Positions 4,446-15,279 of a stretch of DNA of 64,000 nucleotides are shown here, piece by piece. A program made the translations under genes and the position numbers. Position 1 is the stretch's first letter. Each line of letters starts with the position of its first letter. The stretch comes from Thermoflexus hugenholtzii. Lineage in GTDB: Bacteria > Chloroflexota > Anaerolineae > Thermoflexales > Thermoflexaceae. Location of the stretch: positions 1,550,001-1,614,000 of the forward strand of contig NZ_CP076326.1 of NCBI RefSeq assembly GCF_018771565.1, given 5' to 3'. The notes beneath the pieces were generated by a model. The model was given only the letters and a program-made list of their open reading frames with translations, made no database searches and had not been told where the DNA came from.

Positions 4446-6030
4446 CTATGAGGCGTGCAGAGCCGCCAGCATGTCCTCAATCAGGTTTTCGTCGGTGAAC
4501 ATCCCTTTCTCCAGCACGGCATACGCCTGCTGGCGCAGGCGAGCCTGCTCCTCCGGGGCCAGGCTCCGGGCGGTGATCACCAGGACCGGGATGCGACGCA
4601 GCCGCTCATCCGCTTTCAGGGCCTCCAGCACGGCGAAGCCGTCCATCCCCGGCATCATCAGATCCAGGAGGATCACATCGGGAGGATCCCTTCGGATCCG
4701 CTCCAGCGCCTCGTCGCCTCGATCCACCGCCTCCACGTAGAAGGTCCCCCGGGATTGCAGGATCCGCCGGATCAGCCGCACCGCATCCGGGTCGTCGTCC
4801 ACGATCAGCACCCGCCGGCTGCGCGGGTCCAGCTGGTCCAGGGCGATGAGGAACCCTTCCGAGGGGGCGGCGGGGGCTTCCAGCGTGTAAATCCATCCCT
4901 CCCCTAAGGCGAACTTCTCCACGGGGAAGGTGTGCCCGGAGGCGTTGATGACCACCGTCTCCTCCGGCCGGATGTGACCGGAGGCGATCAGCTTGAAGGC
5001 CCCGGCGAAGGCGGCGGCGGCCGCCGGCTCCATAGAGAGGCCTTCCATCTTGGCCAGCAGATGCATCGCCCGATAGGTCTCCTCATCGCTCACCGTCTCC
5101 ATGGCCCCCCCGGTCTCCTGAACGATGCGGCGCAGCACCGGATAAGCCGGGCCGGGGTCACCGGTGGCCAGAGTGGCGATCCGGGTGCGGGGCGTATGGA
5201 CGACCCGGGCCTGCTCCCGGCCCTCGCGGAAGGATTCCACGATGGGCGCGCAGCCCTCCGCCTGGATCACCCCGATGCGGGGGATCCGATCCACCAGGCC
5301 CATGGCCTTCAGCTCCTGGAACCCTTTCCACACGCCGATGGGCCCCATCCCCCCGCTGACGGCCTGGATATACCAGTCCGGCGCCCGCCAGCCCAGCTGC
5401 TCGGCGATCTCAAAGGCGATGGTCTTCATGCTCTCGCGGGCGGCCAGGCTCCGGATCCCCCGATCCAGGAACAGCCCGCGTCGCTCGGCGAACTGGGCCG
5501 CCACCTGCTTGGTCTGATCGTAGGTCCCTGTCACCTTGATGACCTCGGCCCCGTAAAGGGCCACCTCCCGCATCTTGTCGGCGGGGGCCGAGCTCACCAG
5601 GAAGGCCCACAGCTGGATGCCGGCCCGGGCGCAGTAGGCGGCATACGAGATCGCCACGTTCCCGGTGGAGGCGACCACCATCTCCTGCAGGCCCGCCTCC
5701 CGAGCCACGGAGATGGCCAGGGAGGCCTGTCGGTCCTTAAAGGAGCCCGTAGGGTTCTGGCGCTCATCTTTGATGTAAAGACGGGGTCGGCCCAGCATCA
5801 GCCCCAGGTTCTCCGCCCGCAGCAGCGGCGTGCCCCCCTCCTCCATCGTCACGATGTGAAGATCCTGGCGCAGGGGGAGGAGCTCCCGGTAGCGCCACAT
5901 GGTAAAGGGACGCTGCCGGAGCAGCCGATCCCACCGCTGGCGGACGGCCTCCAGATCGTAGACCACGTCCAGCCAGTCGCCTCCGCAACGCGGACAGCGG
6001 ACCTCAAAGCGAAGGTAAGGCCACTGATGA

Positions 6031-6056
<26 letters not shown>
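4446..6056 (-). CDS. threonine synthase-like PLP enzyme fused to a response-regulator receiver domain
   Basis: A 536-residue fusion. Residues 1-30 form a zinc ribbon (CAAC ... CPRCG), common in bacterial threonine synthases. Residues about 70-400 are a fold-type II PLP enzyme: [10 protein letters not shown] holds the Schiff-base lysine (Lys107) and [11 protein letters not shown] is the phosphate/substrate loop. The known reaction is O-phosphohomoserine to threonine. From residue 414 to the end lies a complete CheY-like receiver: acidic pocket VDDD, phospho-acceptor Asp465 in [12 protein letters not shown], Thr495 and Lys517, all present. The start ATG at 6056 opens the zinc ribbon and overlaps mtnA by 26 bp; upstream codons are unlike any enzyme. 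No stop or frameshift separates the two parts. What a receiver does here is unknown: phosphorylation-controlled threonine synthesis, or dimer control, are inferences. Confidence 0.85.
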
Positions 6057-7107
<1,051 letters not shown>

Positions 7108-7208
7108 GCAGAGCCTCCGATCGCGATGGAGGTTGAGAAAGCGCGATCCGCCCTGTGCTCCGGATCTTTACAGATTTTACCCTAAAGCGAGACGAAGATC
7201 TTCCGGAG

Positions 7209-7304
7209 GCGCAGGGGGGTGTGTCCCGATTTTGTCGGGCCTGGCCGCTTTGTAGGACAACTGCGAGCAGTTGTCCTACGATTTTGGGACACACCCGCGC
7301 AGGG
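7209..7304. mobile_element. 80-bp MITE-like element with 8-bp target duplication, copy 1
   Basis: The element proper is 7217-7296. Its ends are inverted repeats GGGTGTGTCCC (7217-7227) and GGGACACACCC (7286-7296). Inside is a perfect palindrome with arms GTAGGACAACTGC and GCAGTTGTCCTAC (7252-7279). It is flanked by the direct repeat GCGCAGGG at 7209-7216 and 7297-7304. Copy 2 at 62019-62098 differs at a single base and has a different 8-bp duplication. There is no coding capacity, so it must be moved by a transposase encoded elsewhere; 8-bp duplications are typical of families such as ISL3 and IS1595. Confidence 0.88.
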
Positions 7305-7312
7305 CCTTCCAG

Positions 7313-7341
7313 GTAGGGGTGACCCGCCGGGTCGCCCCTAC
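7313..7341. repeat. GTAGG...CCTAC palindrome
   Basis: Arms GTAGGGGTGACCC and GGGTCGCCCCTAC with a 3-base loop and one G-T pair. Sequence differs from the neighbouring 80-bp element's core but the ends are the same GTAGG/CCTAC, a pattern repeated in several palindromes of this window. Confidence 0.65.
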
Positions 7342-7364
7342 TATCCGATTCGCGGCAACAAGAA

Positions 7365-7392
7365 GGGCCGGACACCTCTCGATGTCCGGCCC
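7365..7392 (-). terminator. intrinsic terminator of pnp
   Basis: On the minus strand, GGGCCGGACA, an 8-base loop and TGTCCGGCCC form a perfect 10-bp stem followed by TTCTTGTT. It lies 33 bases after the pnp stop codon. Confidence 0.75.
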
Positions 7393-7424
7393 TGAGATCG
7401 GCGGAGCGCCCGGATGGGATGACG

Positions 7425-9650
7425 TCAGCGCTCGCCGGAAGCCCGCTTGACGATCTTCACACGGCCGGCCAGGGGACGCTCCTCGCCGGGCTTCCCCTTC
7501 CCTTTGGGCGCGGCCTTCGCGGCCAGCAGCCGATCCCGTTGCTGGGCCTCCTCCACCGAGAGCCCCTCCAGCACCGCCTGGCGGGAGAGGCGGATCTTGC
7601 CGTCCTCGTCGATGTGGGTGACCATCACCAGGATCTGGTCGCCCACGCGCACCACGTCCTCGATGCGGTTGACCTTCTGGTCGGCGATCTGGGAGATGTG
7701 GACCATCCCCACCTCGCCGGGGAGGATCTCCACGAAGGCCCCGAAGTCGGTGATGCGGATGACCTTCCCCAGGTAGATCTTGCCCACCTGGGGTTCCTCG
7801 GCGTAGGCCTCGATCTTGAGGCGGGCGCTCTCGGCGTCGGCCAGGCTGGTGGCGGCGATGTGGACCGTCCCGTCCTCCTCGATGTCGATCTGGGTATGGG
7901 TCTCCTCCTGGATCTTGCGGATGGTCTTCCCGCCCGGCCCGATGAGGGCGCCGATCTTCTCCACCGGAATATGGACGGTGAAGATGCGCGGGGCGTGCGG
8001 CTTGAGCTCCGGCCGCGGGGCGGGCAGGACCTCCAGCATCTTCTCCAGGATGTAAAGGCGAGCCTCGCGGGCCTGATGAAGGGCCTCGGCCAGCACGTGA
8101 TAGGGCAGCCCCCTGATCTTGACATCCATCTGCAGGGCGGTGATCCCATCCGCCGTGCCGGCCACCTTGAAGTCCATGTCCCCCAGGTGATCCTCCATCC
8201 CCTGGATGTCGGTGAGGATCACGTATTTCCGCCAGGTTTCATCGGCGGTCACCAGGCCCATGGCCACACCGGAGACCGGCTTGCGGATCGGGACCCCGGC
8301 GTCCATCAGGGCGAGGGTGGAGCCGCAGACGCTGGCCATGGAGGTGGAGCCGTTGGAGGAGAGCACCTCGCTCACCACCCGAATGGTGTAAGGGAACTCG
8401 TCCTCCGGCGGGATCACCGGCAGCAGCGCCCGCTCCGCCAGGGCCCCGTGCCCGATCTCCCGCCGGGAGGCCCCGCGCAGCACTCGCACCTCACCGGTGG
8501 AGAAGGGCGGGAAGTTGTAATGGTGGATATAGCGCTTGGTCTCCTCAGGGGCCAGCGTGTCCAGCTCCTGCTGCTCGGCCAGGGTGGCCAGGGTGGCCAC
8601 CGAGAGGACCTGGGTGTCGCCCCGGGTGAAGATGGCCGAGCCGTGGGCACGGGGCGCCACGTCTACCTCGCACCAGATGGGCCGGATGTCCTTCGGCCCG
8701 CGCCCGTCCGGCCGGCGGCCCTCCTCCAGGATGCGGCGGCGCACCTCCTCCCGCAGCGCCTCGTGGAAGCTCTCCTTCACCTGGGCCTGCTCATACTCGG
8801 AGAGGGCCTGGAGGATCTCCTCCTCCAGCTCGTCCAGCGCCTCGTTCCGCTTGTCCTTGTCGAAATACGTGTCCAGGATCTCCGCGATCTGGTGATCCAG
8901 GCGGGCGCGGACAGCCTGGCGCACCTCCTCGGAGATGGAGAAGGCCCTGTAGGTGGCCTTGGGCTTGCCGATGGAGGCCCGCATCTCCTCCTGGAGGGCG
9001 ATCAGCGGCTGCATGGCCTCGTGGCCCAGGCGGATCGCCTCCACCATCAGGTCCTCGGGGATCTCGTTGGCCCCCGCCTCGACCATGATCACCGCGTCCG
9101 CTGTGCCCGCGAGCCGCAGGTCCAGCCGGCTGTGCTCCATCTGGCTGACCGTGGGGTTGATCACGAACTGCCCGTCGATGTAGCCCACGCGCACCGCCCC
9201 CACCGGCCCGAACCAGGGGATGTCCGAGATGGTCAGGGCCGCCGAGGCCGCGATGATCGAAGGAATATCCAGGTGATATTCCGGATCCGCGGAGAGGCTG
9301 GTCAGGATGATCTGGACGTCATTGCGCAGGTCTTTGGGGAACAGGGGTCGGAGGGGGCGATCCACCAGGCGGGCGGTGAGGATGGCGTTCTCCGAGGGCT
9401 TGCCCTCCCGACGCTGGAAGCTGCCGGGGATGCGACCCGCCGCGTAGAGCCGTTCCTCGAAATCCACGCTCAGGGGGAAGAAATCGATGCCCTCCCGCGG
9501 CTCCTTCGCCATGGTGGCGGTGGCCAGGATCATCGTGTCGCCGACGCGGACGATCACTGCGCCGTTGGCCTGCCAGGCGAAGTAGCCGGTCTCGATGACG
9601 ATCTCCTTGTCGCCGACCATCGTTTTGAAAACATGCTTCTCTCGCCTCAT
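7425..9650 (-). CDS. pnp: polyribonucleotide nucleotidyltransferase (PNPase)
   Basis: PNPase degrades RNA phosphorolytically from the 3' end and forms a trimer, often as part of a degradosome. The 741 residues contain two RNase PH domains (first about 10-225, second about 310-540; GRRPDGRGPKDIRPI opens the second), an intervening helical domain, a KH domain (VEKIGALIGPGGKTIRKI, about 555-615) and a C-terminal S1 domain (GKVIRITDFGAFVEILPG, about 620-690), ending in a short basic tail. Catalytic-site residues of the second core are in ICEVD-like and GSTSMASVCG segments. It follows rpsO in the classic rpsO-pnp order, with a hairpin in the gap. Confidence 0.97.
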   Translation of the reverse strand: MRREKHVFKTMVGDKEIVIETGYFAWQANGAVIVRVGDTMILATATMAKEPREGIDFFPLSVDFEERLYAAGRIPGSFQRREGKPSENAILTARLVDRPLRPLFPKDLRNDVQIILTSLSADPEYHLDIPSIIAASAALTISDIPWFGPVGAVRVGYIDGQFVINPTVSQMEHSRLDLRLAGTADAVIMVEAGANEIPEDLMVEAIRLGHEAMQPLIALQEEMRASIGKPKATYRAFSISEEVRQAVRARLDHQIAEILDTYFDKDKRNEALDELEEEILQALSEYEQAQVKESFHEALREEVRRRILEEGRRPDGRGPKDIRPIWCEVDVAPRAHGSAIFTRGDTQVLSVATLATLAEQQELDTLAPEETKRYIHHYNFPPFSTGEVRVLRGASRREIGHGALAERALLPVIPPEDEFPYTIRVVSEVLSSNGSTSMASVCGSTLALMDAGVPIRKPVSGVAMGLVTADETWRKYVILTDIQGMEDHLGDMDFKVAGTADGITALQMDVKIRGLPYHVLAEALHQAREARLYILEKMLEVLPAPRPELKPHAPRIFTVHIPVEKIGALIGPGGKTIRKIQEETHTQIDIEEDGTVHIAATSLADAESARLKIEAYAEEPQVGKIYLGKVIRITDFGAFVEILPGEVGMVHISQIADQKVNRIEDVVRVGDQILVMVTHIDEDGKIRLSRQAVLEGLSVEEAQQRDRLLAAKAAPKGKGKPGEERPLAGRVKIVKRASGER

Positions 9651-10137: not shown

Positions 10138-10229
10138 GCGGGGAGGAGTTCTGCAAAACCGTCCGACATGACACGAAAAGCCGGAAGAGGCGCAGGATGG
10201 GAAGCCAGGACCTTCTCGGATCCCCGATC

Positions 10230-10259
10230 TTGACGGAGGTTCCCGGGATGTGGTATATT
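10230..10259 (+). promoter_or_regulatory. promoter of tRNA-Asp
   Basis: TTGACG (10230-10235), an 18-base spacer and TATATT (10254-10259). The mature tRNA starts 12 bases after the -10 box, the distance expected for a stable-RNA promoter. Confidence 0.75.
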
Positions 10260-10270
10260 CCGAGGTGGGT

Positions 10271-10346
10271 GGGCCCGTGGTGTAGCCTGGCCGAACACGC
10301 CGCCCTGTCAAGGCGGAGATCGCGGGTTCAAATCCCGTCGGGCCCG
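10271..10346 (+). tRNA. tRNA-Asp (anticodon GTC)
   Basis: A full cloverleaf can be drawn: acceptor stem GGGCCCG with CGGGCCC, D arm GTGT/ACAC, anticodon stem CCGCC/GGCGG with loop CTGTCAA (anticodon GTC), T arm GCGGG/CCCGT with TTCAAAT. The discriminator base is G, as is usual for tRNA-Asp. CCA is not encoded. It has its own promoter and terminator, so it is a monocistronic unit. Confidence 0.95.
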
Positions 10347-10354
10347 CTCAGAAA

Positions 10355-10389
10355 GGGGGAAGGCGGAGCTCCCGCCTTCCCCCTTTTTT
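10355..10389 (+). terminator. intrinsic terminator of tRNA-Asp
   Basis: GGGGGAAGGCGG (10355-10366) and CCGCCTTCCCCC (10372-10383) form a perfect 12-bp stem with a 5-base loop, followed by six T. Confidence 0.9.
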
Positions 10390-10421
10390 CGTGGACCCGC
10401 CGATCCTCCTCATCACCCGGG

Positions 10422-10946
10422 CTATAGGGTGGTCGCCCTGCGCCGGCGCAGCCCGTAGCCGATCCCCGCCAGCAACACCCCTGCTCCGGCCAGCAGCCAT
10501 CCGACCCACGCGGGAACCGCACGGGTCTCCCCGCCGGTGCGCGGGAGCGCCGCCCGGATCTCCCCGCACGAGACATAGACCGAGATCTCCTGAGCGGACT
10601 TGTGGACGTTAATGGCGAAGGGCTTGGCCAGCAGATCCGCCAGCTTGACGTTCACCACGGTGGTGGACTTCCCGTCCCGCACCGGCGTCAGGGGGAAGGC
10701 CGGCTTGGGGTTCAGGTTGGCGCAGGTGCCCTCATGGATGTGGGCAGGCTGATCCACGCCCGCCGGGCCCGGCCGGATGTCCAGGGTGACCTCCGTCTGA
10801 TCCCCCATGGCTTTAAGCGTCGCGGTGCCGGATTGCCCGGACTGATTCTGCTCGCGCATGGGAATGGTCACCGTCTCCTGGGCCGGCGCCGCCCCGATGA
10901 CCAGGAGCGCGAGCAGGACGCCGATGAGCCAGCGCATGCGGTTCAT
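10422..10946 (-). CDS. secreted protein with LPXTG-type sorting signal
   Basis: A 174-residue exported protein. Residues 1-23 are a signal peptide (MNRMRWLIGVLLALLVIGAAPAQ). The body (about 24-130) is a beta-rich domain with PAHIHEGTCANLNPKP and FAINVHKS, resembling the small CHRD/superoxide-dismutase-like domains of cell-surface proteins; the two Cys may form a disulphide. The C-terminus has all three parts of a sortase signal: LPRTG, a hydrophobic helix (VGWLLAGAGVLLAGIGYGL) and RRRR. A sortase would anchor it to the cell surface; otherwise the helix would simply hold it in the membrane. GGGAGGGG lies before the start. It is next to, and reads the same way as, a di-haem cytochrome. Confidence 0.7.
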   Translation of the reverse strand: MNRMRWLIGVLLALLVIGAAPAQETVTIPMREQNQSGQSGTATLKAMGDQTEVTLDIRPGPAGVDQPAHIHEGTCANLNPKPAFPLTPVRDGKSTTVVNVKLADLLAKPFAINVHKSAQEISVYVSCGEIRAALPRTGGETRAVPAWVGWLLAGAGVLLAGIGYGLRRRRATTL

Positions 10947-10998
10947 GGTCCCCTCCCGAAATTGGAGTTTGAAGAAAGGCCCGGCGGGGGATCCCCGC

Positions 10999-11703
10999 TC
11001 AAGGGCCTTCGCTTCCGATGGCCAGCGCGCTCAGATAGGCGATGAGGTCCGCCATCTCTTCTTCTGTGAGGTCCGCCCCGACGGCCGGCATCTGACCTCC
11101 GCCCTCCCGGATCTGCCGGGCGATGAAGGCCGGGGTGTGGCGCCGGACTTCGTCCACCAGCACGGGAGCCGGCGGCTCGAAGCCCAGGCCGGTCCCCGGC
11201 AAACGCCCGCCTTCGAGATGGCACGACGCGCAACGCTGCCGGAAAAGGGCCCGTCCCCGAGCCACCGCCCCCGGGTCCGGAGGAACGGGGGTCCGGGCGA
11301 AGGTCGGCTCCCCTTCCAGCGTCCTCAGGTAGCCGAGCAGGCGCTCGATCTCCTCCTCGCTCAGCCGGTCGCCAAAGCCCGGCATGTCCCCCCGCCCGTT
11401 GCGGATCTGCTGACGGATGAAATCCGCGGAGTGCCGATGAACGACGCCGCGCAGGGAGGGGCCCGCGCCCGGCGCATGGCCTCCCTGGGGATGGCAGGAC
11501 TCACAGAAGGCCGCGAAAAGCCCCGCCCCGGTCTCCGATCGGGTAGCGGTCGGAGAGGGGGAGGGAGCAGGCGCGACGGTCGGAAAGCGGGAGATCGCCG
11601 GAATCGACGGCGTCGCTCCCTCCGGCCGGGCCGCAGCCTGGCATCCGATCACCCCGGCCGTGAGAACCCATGGGATCCACCGGCGGCCCCTGCGGGCGGG
11701 CAC
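10999..11703 (-). CDS. di-haem c-type cytochrome lipoprotein
   Basis: A 234-residue protein with two haem c motifs, CESCH (residues about 67-71) and CASCH (about 157-161), each followed by a distal methionine candidate (DMPGFG and QMPAVG). The N-terminus VLTAGVIGCQA is a lipobox, so it is anchored outside the membrane by lipid, with a Pro/Ser/Thr linker before the first haem domain. Two tandem class I cytochrome domains of this size act as electron carriers to terminal oxidases or accept electrons from a dehydrogenase. The GTG at 11703 is preceded by GAGGAGG. It lies upstream of the LPXTG protein on the same strand. Confidence 0.88.
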   Translation of the reverse strand: MPARRGRRWIPWVLTAGVIGCQAAARPEGATPSIPAISRFPTVAPAPSPSPTATRSETGAGLFAAFCESCHPQGGHAPGAGPSLRGVVHRHSADFIRQQIRNGRGDMPGFGDRLSEEEIERLLGYLRTLEGEPTFARTPVPPDPGAVARGRALFRQRCASCHLEGGRLPGTGLGFEPPAPVLVDEVRRHTPAFIARQIREGGGQMPAVGADLTEEEMADLIAYLSALAIGSEGP

Positions 11704-11853
11704 GTTCCCTCCTCGTTGCGATGCCTTTCTGCTTCTTGATACGGATCCACCCTAACAGCGGTTCACGGGCGCAAACCGCCATCCGTGGCCTCAGGCCGCC
11801 AGCGGGTCGGGTTTCGGCTATCATAGGAGAAGATCCGCAGGAGGGAACCGTCG

Positions 11854-13530
11854 ATGGCACCGATCGGAGCGTTCACCTTCGTTCTCCACGCCCACATCCC
11901 CTATTGCCGGCGCGCCGGGCGCTGGCCCCACGGGGAGGAGTGGCTCCACGAGGCGATCGCCGAGACCTACCTCCCCTTGCTGGACGCCCTCTATGACCTG
12001 CACGAGGAGGGGGTCCCGGCCCGTCTGACCCTGAGCCTCACGCCGGTGCTGGCGGAGCAGCTGGCGGATCCGCTCATCCAGGAGCATTTCATCGAGTATG
12101 CGCAGGACCGGCGGAGTCGGGCGGAGCAGGATGTGGCCCGCTTCGAGGCCGAAGGGAATCCCCACCTGCGGGAGCTGGCGCGCTTCTACGTGGACTACTA
12201 CGATCGACGGCTGCGAAGTTTCATCCATCGTTACGGTCGGGATCTCATCGGAGCGTTCCGGCGTCTGCAGGAAGCCGGGGTGATCGAGCTGATCACCAGC
12301 GCGGCGACCCATGGCTATCTTCCCTTGCTCTCCCGGGATTCCTCCATCCGGGGCCAGCTGCGCACCGGCATCCAGACCTACCGGCGGTTCTTCGGGAGGG
12401 ATCCCTTCTCCATCTGGCTCCCGGAATGCGCTTACCGGCCCGCCTATCGCCTGCCGGACGGAACCATCCGGCCCGGCCTGGAATATTTCCTGGCCCGGGA
12501 GGGGCTCCGGCTGTTCTTCGCCGAGACCCACGCGGTGGAAGGAGGACGTCCGGTGGGGAAAGCGGCGGGCGACGCCATCGGCCCCTACGGCCAAATCGTG
12601 CGCCACTACGTGATCCCCTTCGAGGCCATCGAGGGCGTCCGGGGCACCACCTACCGTCCGTATTATGTGGCCCGCACAGACATCCCCGGCAGGGAACACT
12701 CCGGCGTGGCGGTGGTGGCCCGCAACAACCGCACGGGGATGCAGGTGTGGTCCGCTGACTGGGGTTACCCGGGCGACTTTGATTACCGGGAGTTCCACAA
12801 GAAGGACGGGCGCTCCGGCCTGCAATACTGGCGGGTGACCGGAAAAGTGGATCTGGGGGAGAAGGACTACTACCATCCGGAATGGGCGGCGGCCAAGGTG
12901 GAGCAACATGCGGGGCACTTCGTGGATCTGGTGCACGATCTGCTACGGGAGTTCCATCGGTCCACCGGGCAGGTCGGCTTGATCGCCTCGAATTACGATG
13001 CCGAGCTGTTCGGCCACTGGTGGTTCGAGGGCGTGGACTGGATCCGGGCGGTGTTGCGGCGCCTGGCGCAGAGCCAGGAGGTCTGGCTGACCACGGCCCG
13101 GGAGTTCCTGGAGGCCTATCCTCCGACGGAGGTGCTGGTGCTCCCGGAGTCCAGCTGGGGCCTGGGAGGGGGGCACTGGACGTGGGACAACCCGGAGACC
13201 CACTGGATGTGGGAGCCGATCCACGAGGCCGAGGCGCGGATGGAGCGGCTGGCCGCACGATATCCGGAGGCGGACGCGGAGATCGCCCGAGTGCTCAACC
13301 AGGCCGCCCGGGAGCTGTTGCTCCTTCAGGCCAGCGACTGGCCCTTCCTCGTCACCACCGGCCAGGCCCGCGCCTACGCCATTGAGCGTTTCACAACCCA
13401 CCTGGAGCGCTTCGAGGCCCTCTGCCGCTCGGTGGAGGCCGGACGACCGGACGGGGATCTGGCGGAGGCTTACTGGGAGCTGGACAAGGTGTTCCCGGAT
13501 TTGGATTACCGGTGGTGGGCCCCCGCATGA
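11854..13530 (+). CDS. GH57 1,4-alpha-glucan branching enzyme-type glycosidase
   Basis: The 558 residues fit the GH57/DUF1957 branching enzymes that introduce alpha-1,6 branches into glycogen-like glucans. GH57 motifs are visible in order: HAHIPYCRR (about 13-21), SAATHGYLPLL, WLPECAYRP with the nucleophile glutamate (about 189), SNYDAELFGHWWFEGVDW with the general-acid aspartate (about 379), and a C-terminal helical bundle with [21 protein letters not shown] precedes the ATG. It stands alone between divergent and convergent neighbours with a TATCAT box at about 11819. The assignment as branching enzyme rather than amylase rests on overall length and the HGYLPLL type motif. Confidence 0.88.
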   Translation: MAPIGAFTFVLHAHIPYCRRAGRWPHGEEWLHEAIAETYLPLLDALYDLHEEGVPARLTLSLTPVLAEQLADPLIQEHFIEYAQDRRSRAEQDVARFEAEGNPHLRELARFYVDYYDRRLRSFIHRYGRDLIGAFRRLQEAGVIELITSAATHGYLPLLSRDSSIRGQLRTGIQTYRRFFGRDPFSIWLPECAYRPAYRLPDGTIRPGLEYFLAREGLRLFFAETHAVEGGRPVGKAAGDAIGPYGQIVRHYVIPFEAIEGVRGTTYRPYYVARTDIPGREHSGVAVVARNNRTGMQVWSADWGYPGDFDYREFHKKDGRSGLQYWRVTGKVDLGEKDYYHPEWAAAKVEQHAGHFVDLVHDLLREFHRSTGQVGLIASNYDAELFGHWWFEGVDWIRAVLRRLAQSQEVWLTTAREFLEAYPPTEVLVLPESSWGLGGGHWTWDNPETHWMWEPIHEAEARMERLAARYPEADAEIARVLNQAARELLLLQASDWPFLVTTGQARAYAIERFTTHLERFEALCRSVEAGRPDGDLAEAYWELDKVFPDLDYRWWAPA

Positions 13531-14137: not shown

Positions 14138-15279
14138 ACGCTCCCGGTAGTCACTCCTTTTGGTATTGATAATGCTTGAAGGTCAAGAACTCTTCCCAGG
14201 TCCAGATATGATCGGTCAACCCGATGGCCATCGCCGGCGTCCGCGGCCGATACCGCCGCCCCTCCGGCAGGCCCTCCCCCGCTTCCCGCAAGGCCCGATG
14301 GGGCCGCAGCCAGTTGTGCTCAAACAAACAGAGGATCACCAGCGCATCCCAGGTCCCTGTCGTCTTCGCAAAGGCATGGGTCTTACGCGTCAGCGCATTC
14401 AACCGATCGCGCAACATGCCATTCAACCGTTCCTCATGCACCGGATAGGGGCAATCCACCGCCTCCCCAGAACCTGACGCACCTCCACGCGCACCATCCG
14501 GCCCTGATGACGACGCTTGACCGCTTGCGTCAACCCCACCCCAGGCGTGAGCACCAGGGGCGGACGCCCCCGCTTTCCCGTCGGTTGCGCGTCCCGATAG
14601 ACCTGACGAACCGCCCGTCGGTAGACCGGCCGTCCATCGCTGATCCAGATCACGCCCCTCCTGCCAGATGTGCGCTGGCGGGTCTGCGCCACCACCTTCG
14701 GCGCGACCTCATCCTCCGAAGACCCAAAGCCCCACGCCACCACAAAACGAGTCGCCCGGTCCTGGCTCAAACATCCCCAACGCGGGCCCACCCCGCCCGC
14801 CGAGGCGTCTGGATCTCCAGCCTCTGGACACTTTTTTTGACAAACGACCAGAAAGCATCCACCTCGACCTCGCTCAAATGCAGGTCGTGGACCAGGACCT
14901 CGGTGAGGGCCTCAGCGTGTTGGGCGGCCATCCGGAGCCATCGGCCAATGGTTTCATATTTGTGGCCGGTGATCTCCTCAGCGGCGCTCAGGCTCCCCCG
15001 ACGCATCACCACCAGCAGGGTGCGCGCCACTTCCGCAGGGGTCACACGCAAGCGATACATCGCCGTGCCCAGGGTAGGCCCAAACGAGCGCCCGCAGTTC
15101 CGACAGACCCAACGGGGCCGCCCACCCTTACTGCCGTTCTTTACCACATGGGTGGCCCCACAGCGAGGGCAGGGGGGGTTCTGGGAATTGGGCTTTCGAT
15201 TCATCGGGCCCACCTCCGTCGGAATCTGGCCCCGATTATACCACCGAGCACTACTCAGGGGGGTGATTACCACGCTCCC
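14138..15279. mobile_element. IS1-family insertion sequence with intact target duplication
   Basis: The element proper is 14146-15271 (1126 bp). Its left end GGTAGTCACTCC matches the inverse of its right end (GGTAATCACCCC when read on the minus strand) with two differences in 12. It is flanked by the perfect direct repeat ACGCTCCC at 14138-14145 and 15272-15279; 8-9 bp duplications are normal for IS1. It carries one transposase gene on the minus strand, which is frameshifted. The intact duplication implies a recent insertion. Confidence 0.9.
14151..15204 (-). pseudogene. IS1-family transposase, frameshifted
   Basis: Three consecutive reading frames together make one IS1-type transposase. The first (start ATG 15204, GGAGG upstream) has the zinc ribbon CPRCGATHVVKNG ... 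CRNCGRSFGPT and the first catalytic Asp in VEVDAFWSFVKK. It passes over seven A (14832-14838 on the plus strand as T) into the -1 frame, giving LSQDRATRFVVAWGFG and the second Asp in ISDGRPVY. The third frame has the Glu region HEERLNGMLRDRLNALTRKTHAF and the C-terminus. The first shift sits on a slippery A-run and may be programmed, as in IS1 InsA-InsB'. The second needs one extra G at 14465-14468 to restore LGEAVDCPYPVHEE and looks like a real inactivating deletion. Confidence 0.85.

Follow-up and report, generated by a model that had tools for sequence, protein, structure and literature searches.

The locus described here raises a question about partners: what does a secreted protein that ends in a complete LPXTG-type sorting signal do beside a lipid-anchored di-haem cytochrome c in a member of the Chloroflexota? 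The two genes lie in a 64,000-nucleotide stretch of Thermoflexus DNA (the window, whose coordinates are used below unless the genome is named), taken from a genome assembled as a single 3.32-Mb contig. Both are encoded on the minus strand, the gene for the sorting-signal protein, which resembles superoxide dismutases (SODs), lying downstream of the cytochrome gene. The pair has the following features:

10999–11703, minus strand: di-haem cytochrome c lipoprotein, 234 aa, GTG start (open reading frame; PF13442 in two stretches)
11641–11652, minus strand: lipobox VIGC, residues 18–21 (sequence reading)
11491–11505, minus strand: haem motif 1, CESCH, residues 67–71 (sequence reading)
11218–11232, minus strand: haem motif 2, CASCH, residues 158–162 (sequence reading)
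10947–10998, minus strand: intergenic gap of the pair, 52 bp (the scanner lists no terminator-like site in 10200–11900)
10422–10946, minus strand: SOD/CHRD-like secreted protein with a C-terminal sorting signal, 174 aa (open reading frame, translation, CHRD score and fold)
10881–10946, minus strand: N-terminal Sec-type signal peptide, MNRMRWLIGVLLALLVIGAAPA (sequence reading; predicted cleavage at APA/QE)
10533–10547, minus strand: LPRTG sortase motif, residues 134–138 (sequence; NCBIfam LPXTG anchor model)
10449–10517, minus strand: hydrophobic helix of the sorting signal, residues 144–166 (sequence; the structural model has a helix at 146–173)
10437–10448, minus strand: RRRR stop-transfer tail, residues 167–170 (sequence; four residues then the stop)

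An initial annotation of this DNA had read a full sortase signal 52 bases after, and on the same strand as, the gene for a lipid-anchored di-haem cytochrome. Translation confirms each part of the signal, and the gap, the lipobox and the two CxxCH motifs are as it described. A promoter and terminator scan of positions 10200–11900 returned a single promoter-like site, on the plus strand, and none for the pair. Between the end of the SOD-like gene and a plus-strand tRNA-Asp gene (10271–10347), a 12-bp perfect inverted repeat followed by six T can be read by eye (10355–10389); it is absent from the scanner output and is probably a terminator. On the other side of the pair, minus-strand open reading frames at 14151–15273 contain transposase-like pieces by eye (a zinc-ribbon InsA-like start and a catalytic remnant), the marks of a decayed insertion sequence.

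The combination of LPxTG, hydrophobic helix and Arg/Lys tail occurs in one of the 581 window open reading frames of at least 60 aa, the gene at 10422–10946, and in none of the 31,081 frames of 40 simulated windows (second-order Markov chain). The NCBIfam LPXTG model scores the protein, together with neighbouring frame pieces, at 18.9 bits against a cut-off of 15.9; because it also finds matches at E ≤ 10 in all 14 control genomes (above cut-off in nine), it is unspecific by itself. Within its own genome the model gives 14 weak matches, three of them C-terminal sorting signals by eye, a tally that may miss further sortase substrates. The search for other LPXTG proteins that the initial annotation had proposed thus yields two, whose tails carry LPRTG and LPQTG; one scores above the model's cut-off. 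They are encoded at about 2633444 and 1884964 of the genome, the nearest sortase being about 13 kb away. A genome-wide tally of the LPxTG pattern in DNA was dropped, as the pattern showed no enrichment over its reversed control (73 + 71 versus 86 + 76 occurrences).

Had the genome no sortase, the initial annotation reasoned, the tail would be an ordinary membrane anchor. Three sortase domains (PF04203) score above the Pfam cut-off in this genome, and their translations show by eye the His, TLxTC and Arg elements, to which we assign the roles they presumably have in other sortases. The class E assignment suggested at the outset fares less well: class E (NF033747) is the best-scoring NCBIfam class for all three, at 101.9, 61.7 and 49.2 bits, yet none reaches its curated cut-off of 160 or that of any other class. 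With TIGR01076, which models sortases in general and has a cut-off of 39.35, the scores are 92, 41 and 30.2 bits, so that two of the three pass. No sortase gene lies beside the pair in Thermoflexus. Relatives have six sortases in the vicinity of family genes, and each of these is closer to the sortase at 629384 of the genome than to the other two, which makes that sortase the likeliest enzyme for the LPRTG protein. The initial annotation had also thought a sorting signal remarkable in this phylum, which it is not: 291 of the 400 Chloroflexota genomes drawn have a sortase. A 2006 paper knew of a single sortase-like Chloroflexus protein and, in the section that mentions it, offers no evidence of sortase action (PMC1586193); the present pair adds evidence, at the genome level, that Chloroflexota possess functional sortase substrates.

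Relatives of the SOD-like protein (hereafter the family, E ≤ 1e-6) are encoded by 51 of the 400 Chloroflexota genomes, and 60 regions around family genes were retrieved, with a short fragment (G100:C25) left out. An xPx(T/S)G sorting signal is present in 44 of 66 called family genes versus 6 of 604 other genes, and a strict LPxTG in 17 of 66 versus 5 of 604; the type of signal varies by lineage (LPxTG, APATG, VPATG, MPATG, LPKSG). At five loci (L105 and L112–L115), all from family group f93 and four of them from one genus, a same-strand sortase gene directly follows the family gene, and at another (L093, G251:C527) a sortase lies about 1.1 kb from the family gene on the opposite strand. Over the 400 genomes, which by their matching handles are the same set in the sortase and the family search, a sortase accompanies the family in 48 of its 51 genomes and is present in 243 of the 349 others (Fisher p = 8e-5, with no correction for kinship). 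No sortase was found in three family genomes: G397 (98% complete), whose family protein has a lipobox instead of a sorting signal; G148 (83% complete), whose copy has no signal and holds a stop; and G112 (57% complete), which keeps the signal.

These counts bear on whether the tail is an ordinary membrane anchor that is never processed by a sortase. That reading would accommodate the many relatives with xPATG or LPKSG, strict LPxTG being confined to 17 of the 66, and the pair's position in Thermoflexus away from any sortase gene. It becomes highly unlikely in the face of three sortases in the genome, an LPRTG motif common to the window copy and the three intact relatives, sortases directly downstream in five other relatives, and sortase-less family genomes of which two have no signal (one copy being stop-broken) and the third is barely more than half complete. 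With high confidence we predict that the 174-aa protein is a sortase-anchored SOD-like protein. It shares with LPXTG sortase substrates at large a complete signal, sortases in the genome and, in some relatives, an adjoining sortase gene, and differs in its phylum and in the several lineages where xPATG replaces LPxTG. A widespread Chloroflexota family of unknown function, whose T. roseum member is annotated just as a CHRD domain-containing protein, is now tied to a predicted cell-wall location. Two genomes each carry three tandem family genes (L090 at 5911–9020 and L091 at 5617–8823), with long Asp-rich linkers of DDAV type preceding a VPATG sorting signal.

The initial annotation overlooked the SOD/CHRD-like nature of the LPXTG protein, which emerges from CHRD and Sod_Cu matches and from the fold. 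The CHRD model (PF07452, cut-off 24.1) scores 24.2 bits for the window domain alone and 23.1 bits for the whole protein, and a search of the genome with this model did not list the gene at 10422–10946. (A clear CHRD-domain protein, at 84.5 bits, is encoded elsewhere in the genome, at 979263–979619; its start resembles a signal sequence, and inspection by eye showed no sorting signal.) At E ≤ 0.01, Pfam searches of 74 aligned Chloroflexota domains give CHRD matches for 56 and Sod_Cu (PF00080) matches for 11; the window domain has no Sod_Cu match at that threshold. A profile of the 74 rows ranked Cu/Zn SODs best in the PDB (E = 0.0053), with the Deinococcus radiodurans protein DR_0644 at E = 0.072, antibodies lower in the list and nothing at E ≤ 0.001. 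Searched alone against solved structures, the window domain gave as its best match an unrelated enzyme (E = 0.77), and a six-row alignment gave no direct sequence match.

AlphaFold models built from six sequences had a mean pLDDT of 67 for the protein and 77 for the domain. In fold comparison the first 21 matches of the full model (best Z 5.7, rmsd 3.2, 93 residues aligned) and the first 43 of the domain model (best Z 5.8, rmsd 3.5, 95 aligned) were SODs or SOD copper chaperones. The SOD-type matches span Z 3.7–5.8 over 86–116 residues, and the best non-SOD matches reach Z 3.5 (full) and 3.7 (domain); as all Z values lie below 8 and the PDB is rich in SOD entries, the ranking may reflect merely a common arrangement. 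Foldseek by itself found no match at E ≤ 0.001 for either model. Z values of this moderate size do not carry the fold assignment by themselves; it depends on sequence, profile and model pointing the same way, and we assign the LPXTG protein with moderate confidence to the CHRD/SOD-like beta-sandwiches.

Conserved positions of the domain suggest a metal site:

10734–10742, minus strand: HxH motif, His69 and His71, candidate copper ligands (H in 68/74 and 69/74)
10722–10724, minus strand: Cys75, invariant (C in 74/74 aligned domains)
10602–10604, minus strand: His115, candidate third copper ligand (H in 71/74)
10566–10568, minus strand: Cys127, invariant (C in 74/74), presumed disulfide partner of Cys75 by analogy with SOD

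The order common to the 74 aligned domains is HxH...C...H...C, with the zinc loop absent, and we take it to correspond to His46, His48, Cys57, His120 and Cys146 of SOD1. Cu/Zn SODs have four copper ligands, one of them a His that bridges to zinc; this scheme, with its bridging His and zinc loop, is not seen in the aligned domains. The family resembles Cu/Zn SODs (PF00080) in its fold, HxH, C-terminal His and Cys pair, and differs in having neither a zinc loop nor what we take to be counterparts of the SOD1 ligand His63 and catalytic Arg143. Between alignment positions Cys53 and His93 there is no His column except position 88 (20/74). A second metal site formed by His 44 and 88 was considered and dropped, since each is present in 20 of 74 domains and both in just nine. 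At the position of the SOD Arg the commonest residue is Tyr (49/74), so that, with no Arg143 counterpart, dismutation may be weak.

The CHRD domains of human chordin share the SOD-like fold and have lost the metal site; the portion of the report that describes them saw no metal in them and judges SOD activity unlikely (PMC13382577). By analogy the family could be a metal-free scaffold for binding or display, and six of the 74 members do miss one or more of the three His. Unlike chordin, the family keeps its metal-site His, each of the three in 92–96% of the domains, which makes a metal-free role very unlikely.

The partner gene encodes a cytochrome whose Pfam scores are 109.9 (Cytochrome_CBB3, PF13442) and 65 bits (PF00034). 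A Met lies downstream of each CxxCH (in DMPGF and QMPAV), and a low-complexity linker of Pro, Ser and Thr follows the lipobox, which was recognised by the usual lipobox rule. The lipobox is standard in the window copy and an atypical WAGC in two Thermoflexus relatives; in the cytochrome of another (L030) none was seen.

Within the genus, the two genes are kept or lost together. The SOD-like gene is found in four of nine Thermoflexus genomes, the same four hold a close cytochrome (at least 68% identity), and the other five, three of which are <90% complete, have neither. One of these five (G001) has a weaker cytochrome match, 40% over about 90 residues, which we take to be another cytochrome. 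Ca. T. sinensis carries the pair in two copies, with LPRTG in each. In G004 (L039, G004:C75, about 7900–9110) neither gene is intact: a Cys is missing from haem motif 1 of the cytochrome, which also has a 1-base deletion, and a 265-base out-of-frame deletion has removed the His site of the SOD-like gene, whose remaining tail reads LPPTG. The small changes could be assembly error, the 265-base deletion less easily. Such joint decay is what would be expected of a working pair.

Electron carriers also adjoin the family gene outside Thermoflexus. In 69 same-strand adjacent genes, cupredoxin was the commonest Pfam family (10 genes), ahead of sortase and cytochrome c with 5 each; no other family exceeded 3. 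In 100 genes lying at a distance of three or four positions, none of the three ranked among the 25 commonest families. The latter scan covers 100 of 197 non-adjacent genes, of which one (at L105) is a cupredoxin by our own HMM. Neither the genes missed by the gene caller nor the window's own neighbours are part of the 69-gene scan; the caller missed the family gene itself in six of 67 regions (L082, L084, L085, L123, L124 and L128), as well as the L077 cupredoxin and the L031 and L092 cytochromes. All ten adjacent cupredoxins come from the f89/Thermomicrobium lineage, with one locus counted twice (as L034 and L071). With cupredoxins and sortases each from one lineage, the neighbour counts are not independent and represent few events.

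Eight of the ten f89 genomes drawn have the cupredoxin neighbour, as does Thermomicrobium roseum, and 10 of 11 adjacent cupredoxin frames have a lipobox. Four groups have a cytochrome c gene next to the family gene and on its strand: Thermoflexus (f1), three f83 genomes, one f87 and one f115. Pfam supports those outside Thermoflexus (L083, L084, L088, L092 and L098); those at L084, L088 and L098 have a lipobox and a long linker, and that at L083 has membrane helices. A first cytochrome HMM was set aside as circular, having been seeded partly on neighbours. One seeded on Thermoflexus only retrieved seven CxxCH proteins in 68 regions, all of them adjacent; four are the seeds, a fifth is the damaged G004 copy, and L083 and L092 alone lie outside the genus, the model missing the f115 cytochrome (L084) and two of the three from f83. 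In two proteins (L081 and L083) a Pfam-confirmed cupredoxin shares one polypeptide with the SOD-like domain; the L083 protein joins three SOD-like domains to a cupredoxin and adjoins a cytochrome c. A third candidate fusion (L122), called by our own HMM, was unconfirmed by Pfam and is not counted as a fusion. Overall, a carrier is adjacent or fused in 23 of 68 regions, a count that includes L122 and the L034/L071 duplicate, and none is present in the other 45. In a tree of 63 domains (without the last 11 of the 74 rows, and with some low supports), the Thermoflexus copies lie amid cupredoxin-linked members, and cytochrome-linked members occupy separate places, a placement that fits a swap of carrier between lineages. 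The family is thereby tied, in several lineages, to an electron carrier as well as to the wall.

The use of other carriers by relatives suggests, at the level of gene content, a surface redox module. The initial annotation had proposed a cell-surface electron-transfer or copper/redox module, and this idea gains comparative support from the predicted SOD-like fold, the conserved His and the cytochrome c, cupredoxin and sortase genes beside relatives. We propose that the pair forms an extracytoplasmic redox module made of a wall-anchored copper-only-SOD-like protein and a lineage-specific electron carrier, a proposal that could equally prove right or wrong as a whole; that the SOD-like protein has a working partnership with its carrier is a part of it towards which we lean. 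The 174-aa protein would be secreted, cut at LPRTG by sortase and fixed to peptidoglycan. Its SOD-like domain would carry a three-histidine site, most likely for a single copper, with no zinc loop, and its Cys pair would probably form a disulfide. The di-haem cytochrome, tethered to the membrane by lipid and a flexible linker, would pass electrons to or from the copper site, a role that would fall to a cupredoxin in another lineage. The most likely use would be surface scavenging of superoxide or a similar one-electron donor, the electrons passing to the cytochrome and then to a respiratory oxidase. Superoxide itself is a tentative choice of substrate, which we consider somewhat less likely than not.

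The same arrangement can be read as copper handling, in which the domain holds copper or passes it to a cupredoxin or oxidase and the cytochrome keeps the copper reduced. A SOD copper chaperone does appear among the fold matches of the full model (at ranks 7 and 11), cupredoxins are neighbours or fusion partners in relatives, and a site of just three ligands is compatible with exchange. A chaperone bound covalently to the wall would nonetheless be poorly suited to carrying copper, a cytochrome c has no need of the metal, and no copper transporter or oxidase assembly family is found among the 25 commonest of 110 neighbour families; we consider copper handling unlikely.

The protein might instead be a wall-anchored copper-only SOD that dismutates alone, its adjoining carrier merely co-regulated with it under aerobic or oxidative stress. 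A search of the genome for two SOD families returned one Fe/Mn enzyme, in whose frame no signal sequence can be seen by eye, and no Sod_Cu (PF00080) place above cut-off; as far as these two families go, a scavenger of superoxide at the surface would thus supply something that the genome otherwise lacks. The closest function that we found is that of DR_0644, a Cu-only SOD in an S-layer complex of D. radiodurans (PDB 8ACA). According to the parts of that report concerned with DR_0644, the complex cut pyrogallol auto-oxidation by about 85%, and copper, unseen in the map, is predicted at a three-His site (His74/76/182) (PMC9823218). DR_0644 and the window protein are alike as envelope proteins with a SOD-like beta-sandwich, an HxH with a distant His, and no zinc; DR_0644 differs in being held by the S-layer rather than by sortase, in its Thr-rich central stretch and in the weakness of the sequence match given above. 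The 45 regions without an adjoining carrier would also suit a lone SOD. Against it, carriers adjacent or fused in several lineages and the joint decay in G004 point to a working partner, and the SOD Arg position has no Arg. Lone dismutation is therefore, in our judgement, rather unlikely.

A bolder version of the redox module can be stated, in which the sortase-anchored three-His copper SOD-like enzyme oxidises superoxide or another one-electron donor and hands the electron to its dedicated carrier, with no dismutation. Escherichia coli offers a comparison of mechanism only: its superoxide oxidase CybB, a membrane cytochrome b that reduces quinone, likewise takes the electron of superoxide into the respiratory chain, with no copper and no SOD fold. 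We regard this version as quite unlikely, but if true, detoxification would feed the respiratory chain via cytochrome c or cupredoxin, by lineage. The pair is in any case a compact two-gene system for testing directly the role of those bacterial SOD-like domains in which the copper histidines are retained.

Searches of open-access full text found nothing pairing a CHRD domain with sortase or a CHRD domain-containing protein with a cytochrome; SOD, LPXTG, copper, sortase and cytochrome c together returned just unrelated diphtheria work. The main text of the Thermoflexus genome paper mentions neither sortase, superoxide nor copper (PMC8129789). The parts are thus known and the combination was found nowhere in the open-access literature, an earlier description elsewhere being possible. 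One relative extends the architecture in another direction: at L088 (3525–6227) a 900-aa frame joins a SOD-like domain to kelch repeats and a C-terminal protein kinase (Pkinase, 156.9 bits), with a cytochrome c gene and another family member coming after it, and this protein is possibly a surface redox sensor kinase.
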